This document shows positions 1,172-24,617 of a DNA stretch of 51,437 bases, piece after piece. The notes under the pieces were generated by a model. It had not been told where the DNA came from, did not search any database, and saw nothing but the letters and a program-made list of their open reading frames with translations. The stretch is taken from the NCBI GenBank assembly GCA_013286495.1, contig JABDFQ010000010.1, positions 1 through 51,437 on the forward strand, read 5' to 3'. The translations under genes were made by a program, and so were the position numbers. The DNA comes from Gammaproteobacteria bacterium (GTDB taxonomy: Bacteria > Pseudomonadota > Gammaproteobacteria > DSM-16500). Numbering within the stretch: position 1 is the first letter of the stretch; every line of letters begins with the position of its first letter.

Positions 1172-3517
1172 ATGCAAGGCAGCAAAATTACCTTATTTGA
1201 TTCATCACTAATCAAACCTCCGAAAGAAATCGCAATGACATTACTAACTTCTGATCCTTCTGCATTTATCGAAAAATTGATGGAAAATAACGAATGGTTT
1301 TCATATGAAACAGCATTAAAGCTTGATAAATATGATCCACTAAACGAGAGCAGAAAAAAATTTAATACGCATGATATACATTTATTAAATGCACATGTTG
1401 ATAATTATATTTTCTTGCCAGGGTGGCTGGATAAAAGGGAAATGGAAGATATACAGCTTAATTTGCATCAGGAAGATTATCAGAAATCCCGTGAAAAAAT
1501 AATGGAAAAACACGCGCAAAGGCAAACGCTGGCATGTGCTGCGGTAAGGGAACTCATAGGTTATGCAGATGAAGATGAATTTATTTTTACTTCACGTACT
1601 TTGGCTGGAAACCTGCAATTAATGATTGAATTATTCAAACCTGATTACAAGGATTGGATAGATGGTAAATACAAAATCGTCATGCTCGATAATGATCTAT
1701 ATAAAAAAAATAAAAAAGTAATAAAACAGGCATTACAGCGTATTATCCAGACTGCTGCAAAATATGGCTGTTTTTCTGAAAGCTTGCCCGATATCAATGA
1801 CATTATTTGTCTGATTAAACCAAATCAAAATAAACATTATTGCGAAAAAGAAATAGCTGAATTCGTCAGCAGGCATAAAACCAGCATCAATATGCTTTTA
1901 TTGCCATCTGTTATCGTGGAAACAGGACAGCGTTTGCAAATGCCAGTGATTTTAAATGGATTGGCAGAAGAAATCAGTAATCAGGAGATTATCATTGGAC
2001 TTGATTTGTCAGAAACACTGGCAAATAGAATGATTGATCTTAAAACATTACCAGGTGTTGCGTTTGCCGTAAGTAATGCAAAATATTTATGTGTATCTGA
2101 AACAGGATCATTAGGTTTGTATGTCAATAAAAAATATAACCAAAACGGTGCGGTCGATTTTGCTGATGATGAATTGCATCATCTCATTCCAGCCAAATCC
2201 TGGCTTGAATATTTTCACCAGCAAGGCTGGCGTAAATATATGAGCAAATCAGAATGTTTGAGCTTGTATATCATCAATTTATTAAAAAAGCATTTTGGCA
2301 ATCAGATCACTATCATTACACCAGAAGATACGCTATGTCATGGTTCAGCGATTGTATTTCGCTTTACTGATCTCAAAGATGCAGATTTTATTGGTGAGTT
2401 TCTTATGTCGCAAAAGACATATTTGGGAAGTTTCAAAATCGAGGTTGTCGATAGTGATATCTATATCAATCCCCATTATGCCTATGCCAGTTTTAGTAAA
2501 ATAAACAAGGCGATCGAAAAAATTATTCATGCACGTAAAATTTTGAATTTGAAGGTTGCCAACCTTTCCATGCTTGAGCTGGATAAGACATTTACGTTCG
2601 ACTGGACGAACTCCCAAAATATTGCAGTGATAACTGATATCGCCGTGCAAATCGATAGACAAATAAAGGATTTGGGTATTGATAAAACCAGTTATGAAGA
2701 AGTCATGGCTTATATTGCCCTTAATTTCAAATTGGCGACTTATTATAATCATGTTATGCAAAATCCTGAAAAAGCGCTGGAAAAGCTGGATATCTGTGAA
2801 ACACATTATTTGCAAAAAACATCAGTCTCTGCGGATCTCGCTTCAGTAAGAATTCAGATGGCTTATGCCTCTCAGCAATTGGCAGTGTATGCATCAGGAA
2901 ATTATGCGGAAGATGAAAATGGTGCTGTCATAAATAACGAGCAAATGTGTGAATATGCTGCCAGAGTAAATAAATATCTGCAATTAGTAGTGAAAATGTA
3001 TCAGCATGCAAATGTGGATGATAAAAAATGGCAACAAATCATGGCAGATTTGAATCATATATTAGCATTGGAGTTAGCACGCGCTCATAAATATGATGAT
3101 AACATTTCACGCGATGAGGTATTGCAACAGTATCAGGTAACGATCATTCGTTATGAAAAGGCCGGAATTTCCCATGATCAGTTTGCAAAATTACTACTGG
3201 ATTATGCTTCATTTCTACTGCTGAATGAGCAATACAGGCTATTGGAAGAATGTCAGCTGTGCCTGAAAAAATATTGGGAAAAAAATGATGTTGAACATAA
3301 TCCTTATAAGCAACGTTTTGAAAATGCTAATAATGAATTTACGAGAGCAATCATTTCCAATAAGAAAAAACTAAAAGAGCAGGAAGAAGAAAAATCAGAA
3401 AGCGATAAATTGACGAAAGAGGGAAGTAAAAATAGACTCTCACCAAGAAAATTTATATCAAATCCATTTATTACCATTACAGAGCATAGTTCGTCCCCGA
3501 GAAAACCTTCCTTATAA
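1172..3517 (+). CDS. Kynureninase-like PLP-fold protein with long helical C-terminal extension
   Basis: A 781-residue protein. Residues about 45-460 follow the order of kynureninase landmarks: DPLNESRKKF near 55, an FTSRTLAGNLQLMIELF stretch near 138 (kynureninase 'TST.NL'), GLDLSETLAN at 276-285 (PLP-ring aspartate D278 in place of the family's GWDLAHAxGN), SNAKYL at 301-306 (candidate Schiff-base lysine K304), and HGSAIVFRF near 390 (family RGxQLSLRF). The His of 'DLAHA' and the HSLG-type substrate loop are not kept, so kynurenine hydrolysis is unlikely. Residues 460-781 are helix-rich and charged, end in a Lys/Glu-rich coiled-coil-like tail, and have no recognised domain. Kynureninase is normally about 400-420 residues. 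No strong ribosome site is seen. Its stop overlaps the stop of the convergent amidotransferase. The fold call is mine from motif order; the function is unknown, and an effector role is possible. Confidence 0.6.
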   Translation: MQGSKITLFDSSLIKPPKEIAMTLLTSDPSAFIEKLMENNEWFSYETALKLDKYDPLNESRKKFNTHDIHLLNAHVDNYIFLPGWLDKREMEDIQLNLHQEDYQKSREKIMEKHAQRQTLACAAVRELIGYADEDEFIFTSRTLAGNLQLMIELFKPDYKDWIDGKYKIVMLDNDLYKKNKKVIKQALQRIIQTAAKYGCFSESLPDINDIICLIKPNQNKHYCEKEIAEFVSRHKTSINMLLLPSVIVETGQRLQMPVILNGLAEEISNQEIIIGLDLSETLANRMIDLKTLPGVAFAVSNAKYLCVSETGSLGLYVNKKYNQNGAVDFADDELHHLIPAKSWLEYFHQQGWRKYMSKSECLSLYIINLLKKHFGNQITIITPEDTLCHGSAIVFRFTDLKDADFIGEFLMSQKTYLGSFKIEVVDSDIYINPHYAYASFSKINKAIEKIIHARKILNLKVANLSMLELDKTFTFDWTNSQNIAVITDIAVQIDRQIKDLGIDKTSYEEVMAYIALNFKLATYYNHVMQNPEKALEKLDICETHYLQKTSVSADLASVRIQMAYASQQLAVYASGNYAEDENGAVINNEQMCEYAARVNKYLQLVVKMYQHANVDDKKWQQIMADLNHILALELARAHKYDDNISRDEVLQQYQVTIIRYEKAGISHDQFAKLLLDYASFLLLNEQYRLLEECQLCLKKYWEKNDVEHNPYKQRFENANNEFTRAIISNKKKLKEQEEEKSESDKLTKEGSKNRLSPRKFISNPFITITEHSSSPRKPSL

Positions 3518-4429
3518 ATTAATGTCCTGCGAGGTTATTTTTACTTCACCGCCGGAAAGTTCAGCGACAATGAGCGTATATTCCGGTACTTCAATCCAGG
3601 TGGTAGCATCTTCTGTTAATGGTTCCGAGGCAATAATGATGCTTGATCTTGTTTTGCTGCCTTTCATTTTATATTCATTATCATAAAACCCATAACTATC
3701 ACCATAGGTATACCACAAGGAATGATATGCAAAATGTGAAACAGCTTCGGTATCACTGGCTTGCCAGCCATAATCAAGCACATAACGTGTCGCTGCGATA
3801 AATTCACCATTAGTGATAAATAAATTCACTGGAGAATTAATCGAGATATTATTTTTCTTGCGCACACGTTGCAAGATTTTGAGTGTTTCGTTAATTGCAG
3901 CGATAATTTCTGGTGTTGCATATTTGCCATGTGGGTTCGCCAATTGCGAAATAAACAGGGAATAAATCCATTCACTATCGGTTGTGCCATGAATATCTTT
4001 TTTAAATTCAGGTTTGATATATTCAAGTAAATCATATTTCATGGATTCAAAATTATATAATGAGCCATTATGAGCGAGTGCAACATTCGATCCAGGAAAT
4101 AAAAATGGATGTACGTTTTGCGTGGAAATAACTTGTTTATCGCTATAAGTTACACCGCGCAAATGAGCGAGCATGCAATGTGGTGATATTTTGCTGGCCA
4201 GGTTTCTGAGATTTTCATCATAAAATGGCAACAATGGTGTTTTATAAAGAAACGGTAACTGCGGATCATACGAATGCTGATCCCATGCCACAATTCCAAA
4301 TCCCGCAAGATTTAAGAGATGTGACATGTATTTCGGATGATAACTTTGTTTGATGAAAGAATTATCCGGTTTATATAATAATTCTTCCACAAGTATCGGT
4401 TTTCCAAGATACGATAATATTCTGCACAT
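3512..4429 (-). CDS. Class II glutamine amidotransferase (YafJ/EgtC-like)
   Basis: A glutamine amidotransferase of the Ntn-hydrolase class II. The start at 4429 gives MCRILSYLG, placing the catalytic Cys at position 2; the longer frame begins at a GTG (4438). AGGTG lies six bases before the chosen ATG, inside the last codons of the upstream gene. Further family marks are LAHLRGVTYSD, the NVHPF segment, LAHNGSLYNF and HGTTDSEWIY. The protein is about 305 residues, a normal length. It is the last gene of a three-gene minus-strand operon with the cNMP-domain protein and a GCS2 ligase, and starts five bases after the previous stop, suggesting translational coupling. EgtC-type enzymes hydrolyse gamma-glutamyl amides, which makes the GCS2 neighbour noteworthy. 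The actual substrate is unknown. Confidence 0.88.
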   Translation of the reverse strand: MCRILSYLGKPILVEELLYKPDNSFIKQSYHPKYMSHLLNLAGFGIVAWDQHSYDPQLPFLYKTPLLPFYDENLRNLASKISPHCMLAHLRGVTYSDKQVISTQNVHPFLFPGSNVALAHNGSLYNFESMKYDLLEYIKPEFKKDIHGTTDSEWIYSLFISQLANPHGKYATPEIIAAINETLKILQRVRKKNNISINSPVNLFITNGEFIAATRYVLDYGWQASDTEAVSHFAYHSLWYTYGDSYGFYDNEYKMKGSKTRSSIIIASEPLTEDATTWIEVPEYTLIVAELSGGEVKITSQDINL

Positions 4430-10514: not shown

Positions 10515-12290
10515 ATGTGGGCTGTTTTTACTGAAAACTTATTAAAGCAAATTGAAGAAGTATCTATTATAAAAAAATCCATTCTGAGAGCAATAACGCT
10601 TTCTTTGTCTATTGGTATTATTTTTTCTTCTATTGCTTATAATTTTATATATTTTCCTAATCTTGAAATTTTTCATGCGGCAATTATTATAATTTTATCT
10701 GTTTTAATTGGCTGTGTAAGCAGTGCATTTGTTTTTGTTAATATGCTAGGCCATATTAGAAATATTATTAATGAATTATGTGCTGATTCACCAAAATGGG
10801 AATGGCTTGAAAATCAGTATATGGCATCTGATTTGAAAAATTCATACTTGGCAATTAAAAAATTACACCAGAATGTTTCATCAAGCTCGAAACTTGTTGG
10901 TATTTCACAAATTGCTTCCCAGGTTGCGCATGATATTAGGTCGCCCTTAGTTGCGCTGGATGTGATCGTAAAGGATATGAAAGATATCCCAGAAGAACAA
11001 AGAATTTTAATTAGGAAATCAACCAGCCGCATTCATGAAATTGCAAATAATCTATTATTGCAATACAAAAGTATTGTCAAGGGCGATGAAAATAAGGCTG
11101 ATATAGAAAAAGATAAATCATCAGAGCTCATTTCAGACCATATAATTGGATTAATATCTGAAAAAAGAATGCAATACAAAAACCGTAAAATTAATATTGT
11201 TTTGGATATTAAAGAAGATGCATATGGTAAATTTTCAAATATTCAATCCTCAACTTTTAATCGTGTTTTTTCAAATTTGGTTGATAATGCAGTAGAGGCA
11301 GATGCAAGTCTAATTACTATAATTTTAAAAACGATATCATGCGAAAATTCTATAATGATAAAAGTAATGGACAATGGAAAAGGAATGTCTGACTTAATTC
11401 TTAATAGGATTTTAAATGGTGGTGGGTTTACGAACAAACCAAATGGTCACGGGTTAGGTTTGAAGTATGTTATTGATACAATAAGTAATGAATGGAATGG
11501 GCGATACAATATTATTTCCAAGCCTAATCATGGAACCTCAATTGAAGTTATATTACCACATGTATCTCCGCCAAAATGGTTTCTACCTGTATTGGTTGTA
11601 GATTCGAATAAAACGATTGTTATTGTTGATGATGATGAGTCTATTCATCAGGTGTGGAAAAGTCGGTTTGCAGAAGTGTATCCGGATTTCAAATTTATTA
11701 ATTTATATACGCTTCATGAATTATCAAGATTATGTAGAGATAATCTGTCTGACAAAAGATATACGTATCTGGTTGATTATGAATTCACAGGGTCAAATAT
11801 TAATGGGTTGAGTTTCATAGATGAACTATCTATCAGTGACAATTCATATTTGGTAACGAGTCGCCATGATGATTTTGATATCAAAAAAAGCTGCGAAAAA
11901 ATGAGATTGAAAATTATTCCAAAAACATATGCGGTATATATACCTATACATTTGAATATTAATAACAGTAAAAAGACGGTTGATCTGATATTAATTGATG
12001 ACGATGATTCGATTACTGGTGCGTGGCGGATACGAGCAATGAATAATAATAAAAAAATATCTGTATACAATTCATTTTCTAATTTCAAAATGGATATTCA
12101 ATGTTTTGATTTCCACATTCCAATCTATATCGATTCCGAATTACATGATGAAAGAAAAGGACAGGATTATGCATTGGATTTATACAATGTAGGGTTTGAA
12201 AATATATATTTGTGTACAGGTCATTCAGTTGAGTATTTTCCGGAGATGCATTGGATTAAGGGTATTGTGGGAAAGATGCCTCCGTTTTAG
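10515..12290 (+). CDS. Hybrid sensor histidine kinase with two C-terminal receiver domains (HK1)
   Basis: A 591-residue inner-membrane kinase. Two membrane helices (about 25-47 and 53-75) leave almost no periplasmic loop. HisKA follows with phospho-acceptor H139 in SQVAHDIRSPL, then HATPase_c with N-box NLVDNAVEA, DNGKGM and GHGLGL. Two complete receivers come next. REC1 (about 366-480) has acidic D372-D374, phospho-acceptor D421, T448 and K470. REC2 (about 489-591) has acidic D495-498, D540, T568 and K587. Both receivers keep all key residues, so a multistep relay is possible. No output domain is present, so a separate phosphotransfer protein is needed. It is homologous across its cytoplasmic half to the kinases at 28840 and 47107, and lies 18 bases after the permease gene. 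Confidence 0.88.
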   Translation: MWAVFTENLLKQIEEVSIIKKSILRAITLSLSIGIIFSSIAYNFIYFPNLEIFHAAIIIILSVLIGCVSSAFVFVNMLGHIRNIINELCADSPKWEWLENQYMASDLKNSYLAIKKLHQNVSSSSKLVGISQIASQVAHDIRSPLVALDVIVKDMKDIPEEQRILIRKSTSRIHEIANNLLLQYKSIVKGDENKADIEKDKSSELISDHIIGLISEKRMQYKNRKINIVLDIKEDAYGKFSNIQSSTFNRVFSNLVDNAVEADASLITIILKTISCENSIMIKVMDNGKGMSDLILNRILNGGGFTNKPNGHGLGLKYVIDTISNEWNGRYNIISKPNHGTSIEVILPHVSPPKWFLPVLVVDSNKTIVIVDDDESIHQVWKSRFAEVYPDFKFINLYTLHELSRLCRDNLSDKRYTYLVDYEFTGSNINGLSFIDELSISDNSYLVTSRHDDFDIKKSCEKMRLKIIPKTYAVYIPIHLNINNSKKTVDLILIDDDDSITGAWRIRAMNNNKKISVYNSFSNFKMDIQCFDFHIPIYIDSELHDERKGQDYALDLYNVGFENIYLCTGHSVEYFPEMHWIKGIVGKMPPF

Positions 12291-12427
12291 TTTGAATAAA
12301 TGGCTCAGCAAGCTAAAGGGGATTTTTTGACAAGAAATTGAGCATGATCACTATCTGCATTACAGACTCAAATTTATACGAAAGCTCTTCGCTTATGGCG
12401 GTGTGAAAAGTTTGAGCAAAAAGAAAT

Positions 12428-12904
12428 TTAGTTACTTTCATATAATGAAATTCGCATCAAGTTATCTTCTATCACGCTTTTTAAAGTATTTATGCATTCA
12501 ACCATGTTCTCTTTCAACTCATGTTCCCAGTACTCAACAATTTCATATCCTTGTTCACTTAAAGCCAACCGTTTATGGATGTCCCTTTCTTTGTTTCGCT
12601 GAATCTTAGCTGCCCAGTATGATGTATTAGATTTAGGAATATGTCCGCACCTTGGACAGCCATGCCAAAAACAACCATCTAAAAATACAACTACATTGTA
12701 CGAAGGAAAAAATATGTCTGGATTGCCAATCAATTTTGCATTTGCCTCGAAATTTGTTATTCCCGCATCTATGAGTGCTTTTTGAAATATCTTTTCGGTG
12801 CTTTTATTGTTTGCACTTTTTATTGACCCCATCATTTTTGATCGAAAAACTGAGACATTTGAAAATTGTCCATTCACCAGCCTTTCTCGAAGAATTTTTT
12901 CCAT
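12428..12904 (-). CDS. vsr: Very short patch repair (Vsr) endonuclease
   Basis: A 158-residue T:G mismatch endonuclease. The family block VVVFLDGCFWHGCPRCGHIP (zinc-binding Cys/His and the catalytic core Asp) is intact, as are YWAAKIQRNKERD and EYWEHEL. Vsr nicks 5' of the mispaired T produced by deamination of 5-methylcytosine, limiting C-to-T mutation at sites made by the partner methyltransferase. It lies 14 bases after the m5C methyltransferase gene and is probably in one operon with it. Confidence 0.93.
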   Translation of the reverse strand: MEKILRERLVNGQFSNVSVFRSKMMGSIKSANNKSTEKIFQKALIDAGITNFEANAKLIGNPDIFFPSYNVVVFLDGCFWHGCPRCGHIPKSNTSYWAAKIQRNKERDIHKRLALSEQGYEIVEYWEHELKENMVECINTLKSVIEDNLMRISLYESN

Positions 12905-15875: not shown

Positions 15876-16268
15876 ATGCAATAAAATTTATTATCCCTAG
15901 ATGAAGTAAAATCTCACTTTGAACATTGGCGAACGACCCGCTCTAAACAGCGTGAAAGAATCCCTGAGCATTGATGGAATGAGGTTAAAATACTTGTAGA
16001 TCATTATCCCATGCAAGACATTACTCAAGCGTTAAGAATTAATACAAGCCAAATAAAAGATAATCTTAAAATAGCCACAAAAATTAATTTTGTTGAAGTG
16101 CAGCCTGAGACTTCACCCACCTTAACCAGTAAACAGATTTTATCTTTTCAAAATAATGATTGCATATGTTCAATTGAATTTCATCGTGTAAGCGGCGGTA
16201 TTCTTAAAATTAATGCGCTTCTGTTTCATTATTACCTGCGATCATCGCTCAATTTATGGGGTAATTCA
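15876..16268 (+). pseudogene. Degenerate IS66 TnpA
   Basis: The frame LSLDEVKSHFEHWRTTR, then SKQRERIPEH, WNEVKILVDHYPMQDITQAL is the TnpA-type N-terminus. It is interrupted by TAA at 15882-15884 just after a candidate ATG, and by TGA at 15972-15974 where the family has a residue before WNEV. Downstream the frame runs without a stop into tnpB, so the original end of tnpA is lost or shifted. It is presumably non-functional. Confidence 0.6.
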
Positions 16269-16655
16269 ATGCTGCAAATTACACCACAACACCGATTATT
16301 ACTTGCTGTAGAACCGATAGACTTCAGAGCAGGAATATGTGGCCTTAAAGCACAATGCCAACAAAAATTATTATGCGATCCATTTAGTGGAACTATATTT
16401 GCATTTACAAACCGCTCACGCACTTCTGTCAAATTACTAGTATACGATGCGAGCGGGTTCTGGATGGCACAAAAACGATTTAGCCAAGGAAAACTGGCAT
16501 GGTGGCCAACAGCCAAAACAACCACGGTTTCAGTTCGTGCAAGTGAATTGCAAATTCTTTTAGCACAAGGTGATCCAATAAAAGCAGCCATTCCTAAAGA
16601 TTGGAGATGCATTCCAAGTTATGCTGCTAATGACGATGATAATAGAGTGTCTTGA
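16269..16655 (+). CDS. tnpB: IS66 accessory protein TnpB
   Basis: About 128 residues from the ATG at 16269. LAVEPIDFRAGICGLKAQCQ corresponds to the usual 'DMRKGFDGL' start of IS66 ORF2. SGTIFAFTNRSRTSVKLLVYD and GFWMAQKRFSQGKLAWWP match the conserved TnpB core. Its role in transposition is poorly understood but it is needed in some IS66 elements. Its 3' end overlaps the 3' end of the convergent tnpC by 37 bases. Confidence 0.85.
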   Translation: MLQITPQHRLLLAVEPIDFRAGICGLKAQCQQKLLCDPFSGTIFAFTNRSRTSVKLLVYDASGFWMAQKRFSQGKLAWWPTAKTTTVSVRASELQILLAQGDPIKAAIPKDWRCIPSYAANDDDNRVS

Positions 16656-18280
16656 TAGCACCACGGTAACCAACGCTCTGGTTCTTTAACAATTCGGCTT
16701 TTATTCTCTTGCAAAGCAATCAGATAATTCAGTGGATTGATGCCTGATAGCGCGCAAATATAGATGATACTTGTCAGTACACCGCCAATCATCGCGCCAT
16801 ATTCGGTTTTATAGAATAACCATGTACGCCGTCCCCGGATTGGAATTTTAAGTGCGCGTTCTAAAATATTGTTATCAAGTGGGGCTCCGACAACACGCAG
16901 AAATTGCGTAAGTGCATGCCAGTGTTTCAACATGTAACGTATAGCTTTTCCAAGTGCGTCGTTTGACTCAACTTGCTTGCTGTCCAATTGATGCGTGATG
17001 TACTCATGCAATTGATTCATGATAGCTGCACTGTGTTTTTGATGATGCTCAAGCCTCTGTTGTTTGGTTAAGCCGATAGCTAACTCATCATTTTTGTATA
17101 CAATAGCGATACGTTCAATCACACGTATGCACGGCTCAGGATAAAATTCCTTAAGATCATTGAATTTGCGAAACCCATGGCTTAAGCAGTTGCAGAGGAT
17201 AGTTTTAAATGATGCAGGAATATTTCGACTTAGCGCATCACACATTTGTATTATTTCTTTAGCTTGCACATCACGTTTCTTGAGCAATTTTTCCATGTTT
17301 TCACCCGCATGCATGGTGCCATTATAAAATATGGCAATATCTCGTTGGTCTGTGCGTGAAAGAATTCCCGTTGTGAACATGCCAGTGCGTTCTTTGTCTG
17401 GATGTGTGCGGTTATGACGAATGACATCAGTAATTTTTACATTGGTGTCATCATTGTGAGCAATTTCGCCATTCGCAGCCATGCGCTCTAATGTTGGAAA
17501 AACAAGTAGTGCCGCGCCGCCTACTTCTTCAATTAGTTCCCACTGTGTTGATGCAGATAAAGGCGCGCCAAGCAAAGATTGAAAGTAATCCTGCCTATGG
17601 AACGGCACGGCAACGTAATATTTTTGCAGCGCTAATATCGCTTTAAACGCAGCATCATATTTTTCTGATCCAACGTACCTTGGTATATCGGCTAACACGA
17701 TGTAACTGCAGGATGCGCAGCGAAGCTTTTCAATCCAGTATTTATGTACAGTGGCTAGATTCTGTCCTTTGATACGCACTATCACACCTGGATCAATGCA
17801 ATATAATTTGCCGCCACAATGTGTTGGACATGCATCTCCTGCTTTGTATCCAGTAATTGATAGTTGATGTTCAATGGCATTGGTATACGCTGAATGTGGT
17901 AAGCGTCCATGACCAGATTTAGCTATTTTGTTGGTTGTTGCAGGTGCATTATTTTCATCTAAAGTTTTATCAGATGACTTGCCTACATCATCATTATTGT
18001 TGACGTCATCTTTAGGTTTTGATTGCTCTACATTTTTAGGCTTCTTCTTATTTCTCCTGCCATGACCAAATATGAGCTTGCGTAGGTTTGACAATGTGAT
18101 TTTGTGTTCCATCAGCGCTTTGGGCAACCAAACAGCTAACTTAATGCAAGAAATGGCGAAATCTTTGGTGCCACCGTCAATTGTGCTAGCTTTAATTGCA
18201 GCAATTGCGGCATCGATATCAGCTTGTGATTTATCAACAACTTTAGGTAGCTCATTGCTGTGACTCATGCTGCTGTCCAT
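16619..18280 (-). CDS. tnpC: IS66 family transposase TnpC
   Basis: A 553-residue DDE transposase. There is an N-terminal helical region, a Lys/Asp-rich linker near 80-115, and a zinc-binding-like C-x-x-H...C segment (DACPTHCGG, RCASCSY). The catalytic core has HNDDTNVKI (first Asp), ILCNCLSHGFRKF and NNILERALKIPIRGRRTWLF (catalytic Glu). The C-terminus PERWLPWCYQDTLL is typical of IS66 subgroups. An ATG at 18268, with GGA eight bases upstream, may be the true start. It looks intact. The orientation opposite to tnpAB is unusual for IS66. Confidence 0.9.
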   Translation of the reverse strand: MDSSMSHSNELPKVVDKSQADIDAAIAAIKASTIDGGTKDFAISCIKLAVWLPKALMEHKITLSNLRKLIFGHGRRNKKKPKNVEQSKPKDDVNNNDDVGKSSDKTLDENNAPATTNKIAKSGHGRLPHSAYTNAIEHQLSITGYKAGDACPTHCGGKLYCIDPGVIVRIKGQNLATVHKYWIEKLRCASCSYIVLADIPRYVGSEKYDAAFKAILALQKYYVAVPFHRQDYFQSLLGAPLSASTQWELIEEVGGAALLVFPTLERMAANGEIAHNDDTNVKITDVIRHNRTHPDKERTGMFTTGILSRTDQRDIAIFYNGTMHAGENMEKLLKKRDVQAKEIIQMCDALSRNIPASFKTILCNCLSHGFRKFNDLKEFYPEPCIRVIERIAIVYKNDELAIGLTKQQRLEHHQKHSAAIMNQLHEYITHQLDSKQVESNDALGKAIRYMLKHWHALTQFLRVVGAPLDNNILERALKIPIRGRRTWLFYKTEYGAMIGGVLTSIIYICALSGINPLNYLIALQENKSRIVKEPERWLPWCYQDTLLSSSLAA

Positions 18281-20983: not shown

Positions 20984-21433
20984 GTTGTTTTCCTAGGGGA
21001 TGGGTATAGGCATACTATACGCTAAATTCAGAAGTGCAGGTCATTAATTTTTGATTGATATTTTTAATCAGATAATTAAAAACTAGAAGAAAAAAATATA
21101 TTAAAAAATTTTAAAAAAATATTGTAAAAATAATTTTTCTTCATTATTATGCCGGAATCAAGGTAAGTCTAATGTTCATCCAAAGCACGTTACTATCTTG
21201 ATTGCATTTCTTATCTCTATTTATTCCCTATTACTTCTTTTATTTAATTAACAACTTAAGGAGACAGTCATGAACCCATTTTTGGTTTAACTATATTTAT
21301 AGCTATCGATAAAAAAACGATCTATATATTTCATTAATTAAAATGACAAATTTTATATTAATGCAGGGTTTTTTTTCGATCACCATTTATGTTTTTAATG
21401 CGTATCTATTAATTATATTTTTAGGAGAGATTT
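20984..21433. other. AT-rich intergenic region upstream of the peptide cassette
   Basis: About 450 bases. They separate the divergent threonine aldolase gene from the small peptide gene and are very AT-rich. They hold only a six-codon frame at 21270 with a strong ribosome site, and a weak AATCAAG/CTTGATT inverted repeat around 21155-21203. A hydrophobic 36-codon frame beginning near 21352 overlaps the peptide gene but has no ribosome site. I see no other gene. Confidence 0.5.
21270..21290 (+). other. Six-codon frame with strong ribosome site (leader or broken peptide gene)
   Basis: AAGGAG at 21258-21263 is placed ideally before ATG 21270, which opens MNPFLV then TAA. With one extra T in the T5 run (21279-21283), the frame would instead read MNPFFGLTIFIAIDKKTIYI and end at a TAA near 21336, a 22-residue peptide. 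Its P-F-F-G recalls the P-R-F-G of the peptide at 21434. It is either a translated leader or a frameshifted second precursor; both are conjecture. Confidence 0.35.
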
Positions 21434-21496
21434 ATGAAAATGAAAAAAATCAATAAACCACGATTTGGTACAGTTAAAGGTGCTACTTGCGGTTAA
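21434..21496 (+). CDS. 20-residue peptide, candidate precursor of a modified peptide
   Basis: The peptide MKMKKINKPRFGTVKGATCG is preceded by AGGAGA seven bases upstream and ends in TAA. It is basic at the N-terminus (five Lys in the first eleven residues counting both start codons' region) and ends Ala-Thr-Cys-Gly, an arrangement like a leader plus short core. A 14-bp hairpin follows directly. The next gene encodes a protein with a PqqD/RRE-like N-terminus and a haem-oxygenase-like metal site, then a transporter. That order (tiny peptide, hairpin, modifying enzyme, exporter) is typical of RiPP or PQQ-like pathways. It matches no precursor family I know. A regulatory leader peptide is the main alternative. 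Confidence 0.55.
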   Translation: MKMKKINKPRFGTVKGATCG

Positions 21497-21502
21497 GTCT
21501 TA

Positions 21503-21536
21503 CAAGGCCCAGATATCTAATAATATTTGGGCCTTG
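21503..21536 (+). terminator. Strong hairpin between peptide gene and downstream enzyme gene
   Basis: CAAGGCCCAGATAT pairs with ATATTTGGGCCTTG (14 bp including one G-U) around a six-base loop CTAATA. No U-tract follows, so it is more likely a partial terminator, processing site or mRNA stabiliser than a full terminator. It would allow the peptide to be made in excess over the enzymes. Confidence 0.7.
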
Positions 21537-21577
21537 AATGAATCAATTTAAATAAATCTTTAATGGAGTTACATATA

Positions 21578-22582
21578 ATGCAATATCTACAGAGCAACCC
21601 AAAATTTAGACATAATTTAATATTTACTTATAGCGATAAACCAAAAGAAGCTTACATTGTTGCAAGTCATTCAACATTTCAAGTTTCTCAGAAAGATGCT
21701 CAAGAGTTTTTAAAAATAAGAAGCTTTTGTACTGGCTATAATGAAATATCAGCAATATCGGAAAAAAGCGGTATCTCAACAAAAAAAATAAATAAAATTC
21801 TCCAATCCTTATATGATGCTGATATGTTCAGGCGTCCTGCTAGAAATCTCACATTAATCGATAAAAGTGAAATTGTGAATCAATTGTTGGTTCTATCAAA
21901 AATGTGGGGAAAGCAACTTGAGGAAACATATATTGCTGCGGATTTGAACGCTGGTGATTCTACGAAAAATAGCCTAATAGGTTGGTTGTTTGAAACATAC
22001 CATTACATAAAAAATTTTCCGCAAGCGATATGGACAGCATATAAATATGCTGCAGATACTGAATTAAAAAATGTCTATGCAGAGTATTATAGACAAGAAC
22101 AGGGTCATGAAAAATTCATCTTGGAATGTTTAATACGCTTAGGATTTAAACAGGATGAAATTGTTAACAGTATTCCTTTGGTCGCGACAAGATTAATATG
22201 CTTGATGATGGATGAATTATTTAAATACTGCCCTGAATCATTATTGTTAATTGCCAATATAATTGAATCAAACGAAGATTCGACGTTAGATGATTTTAGA
22301 AGTTTTAGGTTATCTTTGGAAAAAAAATATTCACTACCTGATGGTTCACTAATAGCTCTTCAAAAACATTCTGAGTTGGACTATCAGCTGGGGCATGCAA
22401 GTTTAGCTAAAAAACACGAGAAATTTCTTTATAATATTACATGTGAAAAAATACATATTCTTATTAATTTAATTCATGACATTAAACATGCTTTTGATGC
22501 GCAATCAATGGAAATTAAAGAATATTATAATCAGGTAGGCAATTACATTCCTCGCCAGCCCGTGGATTATTTTTCAATATGA
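21578..22582 (+). CDS. RRE-like domain fused to haem-oxygenase-like metal-dependent oxidase (PqqC/TenA/HDO fold)
   Basis: About 334 residues; the ATG at 21578 is chosen because GGAG lies nine bases before it, unlike the ATG at 21563. Residues about 10-90 resemble a PqqD/RRE-type winged helix: beta strands YIVASHSTFQVS, then FLKIRSFCTGYNEISAISEK, GISTKKINKILQSLYDADMF. Residues about 100-310 are all-helical with candidate ligands E139 (FETYH), E174-x-x-H177 (EQGHEKF) and D268...H273 (ELDYQLGH). This is the spacing seen in haem-oxygenase-like diiron enzymes such as UndA, BesC and CADD. Such enzymes oxidise amino acids or fatty acids using O2. It overlaps the next gene (ATGA). The fold is inferred by eye; the substrate is presumably the upstream peptide. 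Confidence 0.65.
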   Translation: MQYLQSNPKFRHNLIFTYSDKPKEAYIVASHSTFQVSQKDAQEFLKIRSFCTGYNEISAISEKSGISTKKINKILQSLYDADMFRRPARNLTLIDKSEIVNQLLVLSKMWGKQLEETYIAADLNAGDSTKNSLIGWLFETYHYIKNFPQAIWTAYKYAADTELKNVYAEYYRQEQGHEKFILECLIRLGFKQDEIVNSIPLVATRLICLMMDELFKYCPESLLLIANIIESNEDSTLDDFRSFRLSLEKKYSLPDGSLIALQKHSELDYQLGHASLAKKHEKFLYNITCEKIHILINLIHDIKHAFDAQSMEIKEYYNQVGNYIPRQPVDYFSI

Positions 22583-23364
22583 CAACAGTTAATTTGAATG
22601 ATTCTATAATGTTTAGTTTTATAGCCGTTGGTTTTATTGCATTTATTAAAGCAAGTACCGGTGGCGGGTATGCTATTCTTGCCATGCCTTTACTTGCTTA
22701 TAAGTATGGCGCCATACGTGCGGCTGCAATTTTGGGTATATGCGTGGTAATAGTCGATGTTTGTCTCATGGTTATTAATAAAGAACAACTGTATCTAATA
22801 AAAATAAAAAAGATTTTAACTATTAGTGTTGGAGCAATATTTGGTGTCATTACAGGTACATTATTTTTAGAATTTATCAAGACTGTCTATCTCAATTATA
22901 CATTGATGATTTTGGCATATTTGTATGTCTTTCAATATTATTATTCCAGAAAAAAATCTACAAGCTGCGCTGATTCATCTTATTTGTTTGCTAATCCAAT
23001 TTTTGATGAAGTAATCGGTATTGTTGCTGGTTTGTATTCAGGCTTGTTGAGTTTTATCTGTCAAGCAGGTGGTCCGCCAATTACTATTTATTTTCTCCGT
23101 CAGGAATTGAGTAAAAATGAATACATTATTCATTGCATGTTAACTTTTTTTATCATCAATATTATAAAGTTACCAGGTTATTTTGCTCTTAATCAATTTG
23201 ATTATCTGACTCTTAAAACTGTTGGAATGCTTACCCCGGCATTGTTGCTGGGCACAATGCTTGGTGTTACATTTAATAAATATGTATCAAGAAGCTTTTT
23301 ATATGGGTTCTCTCATTTGTTATTGATAATTATGACAACATTTATGTTAGTTGATGGCTTGTAA
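22579..23364 (+). CDS. TauE/SafE family membrane exporter
   Basis: A 261-residue protein with about eight membrane helices and the two family repeats: IKASTGGGYAILAMPLLAYKYG in the N-terminal half and GLYSGLLSFICQAGGPPITIYFLR in the second. TauE/SafE proteins export small organic anions such as sulfite, sulfoacetate or related sulfur compounds. It starts inside the last codons of the RRE-oxidase gene (4-base ATGA overlap), so it is translationally coupled and probably exports that enzyme's product. Confidence 0.87.
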   Translation: MTTVNLNDSIMFSFIAVGFIAFIKASTGGGYAILAMPLLAYKYGAIRAAAILGICVVIVDVCLMVINKEQLYLIKIKKILTISVGAIFGVITGTLFLEFIKTVYLNYTLMILAYLYVFQYYYSRKKSTSCADSSYLFANPIFDEVIGIVAGLYSGLLSFICQAGGPPITIYFLRQELSKNEYIIHCMLTFFIINIIKLPGYFALNQFDYLTLKTVGMLTPALLLGTMLGVTFNKYVSRSFLYGFSHLLLIIMTTFMLVDGL

Positions 23365-23426: not shown

Positions 23427-24617
23427 ATGTCAACATCCAGGCAAACCGCACACCAAATCATTTCTGATCGCGCTAAAAGTATTACACCATCCTACACTGT
23501 AAAAATTTCCACGATCGCGCGTGCATTGCAACGCGAAGGCAATGATGTCATTGATCTTGGCATTGGTGAACCTGACATACCAGCGCCTGATGCAATTAAA
23601 CAAGCTGTCGCGAATTATGCTACGGCTGGCCATAAAATTTATTCTGATATATGCGGAACACCTGAACTACTGCAAGCTGTGATTGCTACTATGGCAAGAG
23701 ATTACGATGCCGATTATACAATTTCACAAGTCATGGGTTTTGATGGTGGTAAGGTTGCACTGGACAGGGTAATCGAAACAATTATCAATCCAGGTGATGA
23801 AGTTATTTTGTCTTTACCAGCATGGGTGAGTTATGAACCGCAAATTGCCATGGCAGGCGGCATTGTGAAAACGATCAAAACCACAATTGAAAATAGATTT
23901 AAAATTCAGCCACAACAACTGCAAAACATTATTTCTGATCGCACAAAAGCTATTATCCTTTGTCCTCTTAATAATCCCACAAGCACAGCTTATACAGCTG
24001 ATGAATTAGCAGCATTGGGTGAGGTGTTAAAAAAACATCCTGATATCTGGATAATTTCAGATGATTTATATCAGCATTTACATTTTAAGAATAATTTCCC
24101 CAATATCCTGACTGTGTGTCCTTATTTAAAATCACGAACTATTATTATTAATGGCACTACCAAATCACATTCATGGCGGTTTGGATTTTTAGCAACTGAA
24201 TGTGAAGAAATTATTTCTAGCATGGCAAAAATACAATCACATCGATCGGGCCATCCAAATCTAGAGACGCAAGCAGGTGCAATACAAGCATTAAAAATGG
24301 GGCCTGTATTGGCAAGTGCGGAATCTTTTCGTGTTAGGCATGACATGTTATTGCCACTATTGCAGAAGGTAATGGGATGGAAAGTTATCCCAGGGGATGG
24401 TGCATTTTATTTTTTTGTAAATGTAGAAGAAAGTATGCAGCAATTAAAAATTGATAATGATATTGAATATGCGATGCAATTATTACAGAAAGCTAACGTA
24501 GCAACGGTTCCGGGATCAGCGTTTGGATATGCTGGATATTTGCGCCTTTCCTTCTGTCAGTCGCGCGATAGATTAATGGAAGCGGTTGAGAGAATTCATG
24601 TATTTAATAATGAATGA
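23427..24617 (+). CDS. Class I/II PLP aminotransferase (AspB-like, divergent)
   Basis: A 396-residue fold-type-I aminotransferase. DLGIGEPDIPAP, the PLP Asp/Tyr pair in ISDDLYQHL (D212, Y215), Schiff-base lysine K246 in NGTTKSHSWRFG, and the C-terminal YLRLSF with the carboxylate-binding Arg are present. Some usually invariant positions differ: LNNPTS instead of NNPTG, IYSD where most have YT, and FDGGK for TNGGK. Substrate specificity cannot be assigned. It begins 62 bases after the TauE-like gene on the same strand and may belong to the peptide cassette, or may be a housekeeping enzyme. Confidence 0.85.
   Translation: MSTSRQTAHQIISDRAKSITPSYTVKISTIARALQREGNDVIDLGIGEPDIPAPDAIKQAVANYATAGHKIYSDICGTPELLQAVIATMARDYDADYTISQVMGFDGGKVALDRVIETIINPGDEVILSLPAWVSYEPQIAMAGGIVKTIKTTIENRFKIQPQQLQNIISDRTKAIILCPLNNPTSTAYTADELAALGEVLKKHPDIWIISDDLYQHLHFKNNFPNILTVCPYLKSRTIIINGTTKSHSWRFGFLATECEEIISSMAKIQSHRSGHPNLETQAGAIQALKMGPVLASAESFRVRHDMLLPLLQKVMGWKVIPGDGAFYFFVNVEESMQQLKIDNDIEYAMQLLQKANVATVPGSAFGYAGYLRLSFCQSRDRLMEAVERIHVFNNE

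Follow-up and report, generated by a model that had tools for sequence, protein, structure and literature searches.

A conserved pair of a Cys-Gly-ending peptide and a fused RRE–haem-oxygenase-like enzyme, probably a rare and new RiPP-like system

In the pyrroloquinoline quinone (PQQ) pathway, a short ribosomal precursor is served by a haem-oxygenase-like (HO-like) protein, PqqC, and a RiPP recognition element (RRE; RiPP, ribosomally synthesised and post-translationally modified peptide), PqqD, and the natural PqqCD fusion (5vrd) holds both folds in one chain. PqqC is not known to need a metal, and the precursor PqqA is used through a Glu and a Tyr, not through a terminal Cys-Gly. Ribosomal peptides in which a C-terminal or nearly C-terminal Cys is oxidised by an iron-dependent enzyme are known from TglHI, MbnBC and other systems of the multinuclear non-haem iron-dependent oxidases (MNIO; DUF692), whose fold differs from that of the HO-like dimetal oxidases (HDOs). 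The HO-like enzymes of fluopsin C biosynthesis, FlcE and FlcD, have a small-molecule substrate and no known precursor peptide. Here we analyse a 51,437-nucleotide stretch of a gammaproteobacterial contig (JABDFQ010000010.1; "the window"), in which a 20-codon open reading frame (ORF) ending in Cys-Gly stands before the gene of an enzyme that fuses the two folds in the order RRE then HDO, the reverse of the PqqC-then-PqqD order of PqqCD. We consider it very likely that this locus is a compact cassette making a RiPP.

Known HDO reactions comprise N-oxygenation, C–C cleavage, desaturation and rearrangement, with only about a dozen enzymes functionally validated, and FlcE carries out C–C cleavage and N-oxygenation (section 4 of a 2026 review, PMC13108848). 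Its substrate, like that of FlcD, is a cysteine derivative. In AetD, UndA, HrmI, PolF and MboA the substrate carboxylate binds Fe1, and in MboA, the mangotoxin HDO, this carboxylate is the C-terminus of a peptide (from the account of these enzymes in PMC13185094). MboA also resembles the window enzyme in the spacing of its ligands: on our own mapping from that account, E86xxH89 is followed by 54 residues to E143, 29 to H172 and an HxxxDxxxxH motif, and the predicted ligands of the window enzyme run E174xxH177, 53 to E230, 34 to H264 and HxxxDxxxxH. MboA differs in desaturating a side chain of a tripeptide to an alkyne and in its redox partner, MboB (same account). VarO of the thiovarsolin pathway, the sole RiPP example of an HDO that we found in print, is likewise an HO-like protein that serves a ribosomal peptide, and its cluster also holds the precursor gene and an MFS exporter; arginine desaturation, jointly with YcaO and TfuA proteins, is its proposed role, and the passages on VarO in PMC6511847 describe no Cys-Gly end. 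Our Pfam scans took in part of the neighbouring genes at each locus, and those scanned beside the window enzyme encode a TauE/SafE transporter, an aminotransferase, an aldolase and one protein with no Pfam match. Neither YcaO nor TfuA is among them, which separates the locus from the thioamitides and thiovarsolins; no radical SAM protein is among them either and the precursor ends in Cys-Gly, which separates it from the PQQ pathway, and a SPASM protein occurs downstream only in L006 among the loci scanned. A structure of unknown function, 3dde (Shewanella denitrificans Sden_3740, 239 amino acids), has the HO-like fold and is matched by the oxidase part of the family profile only (positions 110-292), with no RRE part.

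The family was assembled with an alignment of three enzymes as query, those of the window, of G008 in the same genus (41% identical to the window enzyme) and of Rhizobium etli plasmid p42f (26% identical over 98%), which returned 14 records. Our sample comprises 14 distinct full-length loci from Gamma- and Alphaproteobacteria, Acidobacteriota and one cyanobacterium: the window, G008, R. etli, Litchfieldella, cyanobacterium SU2, OFTM54, Azospirillum cavernae, Acanthopleuribacter, Sphingomonas and metagenome-assembled genomes (MAGs) of one Holophagae, two Porticoccaceae, one Pseudomonadales and one Hyphomonadaceae member. Left out were L010 (the G008 contig), L016 (enzyme and peptides identical to L015), L020/G164 (the L008 genome), L019 (neither RRE nor Cys-Gly ORF), a remnant in Rhizobium T1473, two degenerate tandem copies and two genes of L044.

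At all 14 loci, the 700 nt upstream of where the enzyme match begins contain an ORF whose last two codons before the stop encode Cys-Gly (CG-stop ORF). Before duplicates were removed the figure was 16 of 17 records, the exception being L019, an HDO without an RRE. Elsewhere in 12 of these loci, only 4 CG-stop ORFs of 12-130 amino acids were found in 387,598 nt (0.007 per 700 nt), and none stands upstream of related HDOs at 12 control loci (up to 1500 nt; 572 nt in L029); control L024 matches part of the N-terminal domain (model positions 56-294), and the other controls start at model position 80 or beyond. Across 17 genomes of the genus, the Cys-Gly peptide pattern gave 7 matches, of which only those of the window and of G008 are in frame. 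A chance ORF adjoining an ordinary TenA/PqqC-like protein might be suspected, given just 20 codons and the weak Pfam matches of the window enzyme; its recurrence at every one of the 14 loci, the low background count and the empty control loci contradict this and leave it next to no probability. A lack of conservation of the short frame upstream of homologous enzymes had been set beforehand as a test on which the initial annotation would fall; it did not occur, and the computation shows peptide and enzyme to be a conserved pair.

Codon-level comparison, proposed together with that test, supports the same conclusion. Three Porticoccaceae-type loci (L013, L014 and L015) carry two consecutive CG-stop ORFs each, the first ORF of L014 being in a different frame from its relatives. 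For the second peptide, synonymous outnumber non-synonymous changed codons by 17:4, 23:8 and 24:11, ratios reached in 0 of 2000 random-substitution trials each, and by its codon pattern this ORF evolves as protein. The signal is weak for the Acidobacteriota pair L011 and L012, with 6 synonymous and 6 non-synonymous changes (104 of 2000 trials).

The AlphaFold2 (AF2) model of the 334-residue enzyme (predicted confidence, pLDDT, 91.9) shows a βββααα domain followed by an all-helical domain. Translation starts best at 21578, with TGGAG at 21564-21568, a start that agrees with the residue numbering of the initial annotation. The element order of the first domain is the βββ-ααα that RREs require according to the domain description in a 2025 RRE survey (PMC12710340); fold scores are modest, and the nearest chains belong to RiPP proteins. 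The predicted fold thus agrees with the PqqD/RRE-like winged helix read from the sequence beforehand, and the PqqD family itself (PF05402) matches neither the window protein at E<=1 nor any of the 14 members at 0.01. The second domain has an HO-like all-helical fold, with CADD among its nearest folds, and the earlier listing of E139, E174-x-x-H177, D268 and H273 in such a fold holds throughout. That listing proved incomplete as a metal site: the larger likely set of six ligands, E174, H177, E230, H264, D268 and H273 (three His, three carboxylates), is invariant at the sequence level in 14 of 14 active copies, as are E139 and H142 beyond it, and points to a likely dimetal-type ligand set. A structure lacking both winged helix and metal site had been named as the other refuting outcome; the model has an RRE-type winged helix together with the conserved metal-ligand set.

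Known families describe the enzyme poorly. Pfam gives the window enzyme weak matches to TENA/PQQC (E 0.007) and Haem_oxygenas_2 (0.07), and among the 14 aligned members at E<=0.01 Haem_oxygenas_2 matches 11 and TENA 8. Assignment to a known NCBIfam family was rejected, with no match to the window enzyme at E<=1 and, for the 14 members together, nothing beyond CADD, matched by 3 of them (best 7e-6), and a single DdfA match; PHROGs gave a single weak match, of unknown function, for one of three proteins. At L011 (9049-10050) and L012 (9048-10052) a second, tandem RRE–HDO copy has lost five of the six ligands and kept E139, H142 and E230; these copies are probable inactive partner subunits.

The peptides themselves are highly divergent. 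Their leaders range from 20- to 39-mers starting M(K/N/Q)xxK up to 60-110 residues, with ORFs of 20 to about 110 codons, and the terminal Cys-Gly is their sole constant part; 7 precursors searched against Pfam gave nothing above cut-off. In the window peptide, MKMKKINKPRFGTVKGATCG, the N-terminal stretch is lysine-rich (the presumed leader) and the C-terminal Cys-Gly is the presumed modification site. Residues before the Cys-Gly track the enzyme groups: LMCG goes with the Rhizobium and Hyphomonadaceae enzymes (branch support 100/100), FVCG, FMCG or ICG with those of G008, the Acidobacteriota, the Porticoccaceae types and Sphingomonas (100/100). Between these two branches fall five enzymes (window, OFTM54, cyanobacterium, Azospirillum, Litchfieldella) whose peptides have ATCG or VTCG and for which a clade of their own is not demonstrated. 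By eye, the cyanobacterial precursor (L007, 7517-7849, + strand) begins like a Sec signal peptide, and the other precursors differ; the N-terminus of the Sphingomonas precursor (L017, 7719-7904, + strand) is faintly HU-like (PF00216, E 0.023, below cut-off).

We propose that the RRE would bind the N-terminal lysine-rich stretch of the peptide as an extra β-strand and feed the C-terminus into the oxidase pocket, where the terminal carboxylate, perhaps together with the Cys thiolate, would bind the O2-activating metal pair and the HDO domain would oxidise the Cys-Gly unit. Because the residue before the Cys varies (T, I, V or M), Cys-Gly itself is the most plausible modified unit; oxidation had been expected near a C-terminal Thr-Cys-Gly, of which the Cys-Gly is constant and the Thr is not. 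Two kinds of chemistry appear about equally likely, one centred on the Cys and the other at the Gly Cα or backbone (decarboxylation, N-oxygenation, or dealkylation that leaves a C-terminal amide). Export would follow, in the window by TauE, either of the modified peptide or of a small fragment of it that contains sulfur. Table 1 gives the coordinates of the cassette.

Table 1. Features of the Cys-Gly peptide cassette and adjoining genes in the window
Feature	Position	Strand	Basis
Shine-Dalgarno site AGGAG of the peptide ORF	21423..21427	+	read from sequence
Putative precursor peptide MKMKKINKPRFGTVKGATCG, 20 codons	21434..21496	+	CG-stop recurrence, background, controls, codon selection in relatives
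14-bp hairpin in the interval from peptide gene to enzyme gene	21503..21536	+	shuffle-tested fold
RRE–HDO fusion enzyme, 334 aa	21578..22582	+	AF2 model, alignments
RRE-like winged-helix domain, residues 1-90	21578..21847	+	predicted elements E13-18, E21-29, E33-37, H38-48, H57-64, H68-80
HDO domain, residues 92-326	21851..22555	+	likely ligands E174, H177, E230, H264, D268, H273
TauE/SafE-family transporter, 4-base overlap (ATGA) with the enzyme gene	22579..23364	+	PF01925 E 3e-25, 89.6 bits against a cut-off of 32.6
Class I/II aminotransferase, cassette membership uncertain	23427..24617	+	PF00155

The tiny gene with a good ribosome site and the hairpin behind it, both reported by the initial annotation, are present as described, and Shine-Dalgarno-like sites also precede most of the homologous peptide ORFs (by eye). 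The window hairpin has a 14-pair stem and a 6-nt loop; the folding energy of the 49-nt stretch is -22 kcal/mol (z -5.9), and none of 200 shuffles folded as well. It is followed by no T-run and is absent from the terminator-like sites of a terminator scan; promoter and terminator scans of the window yielded no more than in shuffles, and the only Rfam match in the window is a tmRNA. Intergenic hairpins of -20 kcal/mol or better occur between peptide and enzyme in most loci (by minimum free energy alone, the shuffle test being the window's only). Hairpin strength is uneven, weak in L003 (-0.9) and L017 (-9.2). A six-codon ORF, MNPFLV, with an AAGGAG site lies at 21270-21290 (+ strand), 143 bases 5' of the peptide ORF.

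The strong hairpin directly after the peptide ORF, with the terminator-like T-runs that follow the hairpins of G008 and L009, would fit a regulatory leader peptide: ribosomes stalling on the Cys codon would act with the hairpin to attenuate expression of an enzyme and exporter tied to cysteine or sulfur, and sulfur anions are what TauE proteins handle. We judge such attenuation very unlikely: the penultimate codon is the sole Cys codon that stays constant, ORFs of such varied length carry unrelated leaders, the hairpin is weak in L003 and L017, and the RRE fold of the enzyme, together with a double glycine and a C39 exporter at the Acidobacteriota loci, points to a peptide substrate. For a RiPP cassette, the hairpin would probably raise peptide over enzyme level by 3' end stabilisation or partial termination.

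That double glycine lies in the precursors of L011 and L012 (KAGG|RDGAVFVCG, KAGG|KDGPIFVCG) and is the expected site of C39 cleavage; downstream, each locus has genes for a C39-peptidase ABC exporter and for an aldo/keto reductase, and L011 one for a DJ-1 protein as well. In the window, the TauE/SafE gene overlaps the enzyme gene by four bases as first described. A TauE gene also stands 3' of the enzyme in Azospirillum cavernae (L009), the two TauE proteins being 26% identical; TauE thus occurs at only 2 of the 14 loci among neighbours scanned, and the export of the product by TauE that had been suggested fits the locus and stays conjectural. MFS genes follow the enzyme in OFTM54 and, with a methyltransferase, in G008, and in Litchfieldella the enzyme is followed by genes for a class V aminotransferase, MFS, EamA, a SPASM radical SAM protein and an arginase.

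In the window, L009, L008, G008 and L006, the exporter genes that follow the enzyme gene are of small-molecule families (TauE, MFS, EamA), which also suits a peptide that is a consumable scaffold: the enzyme would excise a small molecule from the Cys-Gly end, in a self-sacrifice of pearlin or CADD type, and TauE or MFS would export the anion. Very variable leaders with the end alone fixed, and CADD among the nearest folds, agree with this idea; the peptide-cleaving C39 type of the L011/L012 exporter and the lack of a peptide ligase or regenerating enzyme among the neighbours scanned speak against it, and we regard it as possible but not probable. No protease was found among the window genes scanned.

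The fluopsin C enzymes suggest, by analogy, another product: a thiohydroxamate- or thioamide-like group at Cys-Gly that would hold Cu or Fe, making the peptide a metallophore or copper sponge. The substrate of FlcE and FlcD is a cysteine derivative and not Cys-Gly, and no metal uptake or metal regulator gene is among the neighbours scanned with Pfam; we find this product unlikely.

The downstream aminotransferase had been proposed as a possible participant. Its genome has a second copy, and at E<=1e-60 at least one such gene occurs in 15 of the 17 genomes examined in the genus, the window's included. Since it is only 37-40% identical to the copies in the genus, it may be an acquired extra gene. 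Pyridoxal-phosphate (PLP) enzymes do occur near some homologues, as a class V gene behind the L006 enzyme, a class III gene near L013, and a GntR-aminotransferase, found by Pfam upstream of L006 and read by eye downstream of TauE in L009; these are different genes, the window gene is at most a candidate participant, and the neighbours scanned do not support the aminotransferase as a general core partner. In the Sphingomonas locus L017 two methyltransferase genes follow the enzyme, and an MNIO gene lies somewhat downstream (11330-12583, + strand; MbnB_TglH_ChrH, E 2e-37), the only one seen among the neighbours of the RRE–HDO genes. The R. etli and Porticoccaceae types have no co-oriented partner directly behind the enzyme; the next co-oriented gene encodes an acyltransferase, 0.4 kb off, in the Hyphomonadaceae MAG and a PEP carboxylase in the cyanobacterium.

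The RRE–HDO enzyme family is rare in every group searched. A single-protein search of genome contigs found no relative among 107 candidate stretches, and none was found among 21 viral contigs. Among plasmids, 15 records match the window protein: R. etli p42f alone is full length, Rhizobium T1473 holds a 3' remnant and 13 match in the oxidase part only; the R. etli protein as query finds itself and the T1473 remnant, and two other members, searched at E<=1e-12, find nothing but R. etli. The family occurs in 2 of 36 order-level genomes, window included; 14 of 369 class-level genomes match at E<=1e-10, full length only in the window and G164 (the L008 genome), and four further genome searches at E<=1e-25 returned the seed only each time (1 of 385, 1 of 201, 1 of 82 and 1 of 199). 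In the enzyme tree, G008 falls in a nine-row branch (support 100/100) that excludes the window enzyme, which stands with enzymes of other classes and of the cyanobacterium. Because the congener's branch excludes the window enzyme and the gene is rare in every group searched, these sequence comparisons indicate horizontal transfer of the enzyme.

Several observations touch on the surroundings and outer limits of the family. The Rhizobium sp. T1473 plasmid remnant (L004, 8001-8147) holds only the 3' end of an enzyme gene, 95% identical to R. etli over 42 amino acids, amid recombinase and insertion-sequence genes. Near the window cassette, a stretch that by eye resembles an IS66-type element (16011-18280; an accessory ORF and a large transposase-like ORF) suggests possible mobility. 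Sphingomonas hylomeconis (L044, 6176-8673, + strand) carries two tandem, distant RRE–HDO-like genes; the 12.5 kb of this locus that we inspected contain no Cys-Gly ORF. The Reyranella locus L019 encodes a stand-alone 221-residue HO-like protein (980-1645, + strand), convergent with two radical-SAM-looking genes (1624-3655, - strand), and a 101-residue small ORF (3783-4088, - strand) resembling a long-leader RiPP precursor, both read by eye.

A search of the open-access literature found no description of an RRE–HDO fusion or of a Cys-Gly precursor family; absence in print is provisional because subscription papers were mostly outside that search. The 2025 RRE survey reports many new RRE fusions, and its main text contains none of the terms heme oxygenase, PqqC and diiron (PMC12710340). 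A word search of the RRE-Finder paper (PMC7470986) for heme oxygenase, PqqC, oxygenase, thiaminase and TENA found none, and PMC8120280 and PMC13419390 contain the term heme oxygenase-like once each. The locus thus probably represents a new RiPP-like pair, of wide taxonomic range but rare, and undescribed in print.

We think it likely, with somewhat less assurance than for the RiPP cassette itself, that these loci represent an undescribed RiPP class, spread horizontally and present in three phyla or more, whose hallmark is a fused RRE–HDO enzyme carrying out O2-dependent dimetal chemistry on the carboxylate unit of a C-terminal Cys-Gly. With so little constraint on the leader, such an enzyme would serve as a general tool for oxidising peptides at their C-terminus. 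The likely substrate of the fusion enzyme is encoded beside it and has an invariant Cys-Gly end, which offers a directly testable enzyme–substrate pair, and the CG-stop ORF before an RRE–HDO gene is a handle for genome mining. If the chemistry takes place at the C-terminal carboxylate, it would be a new kind of C-terminal peptide modification.
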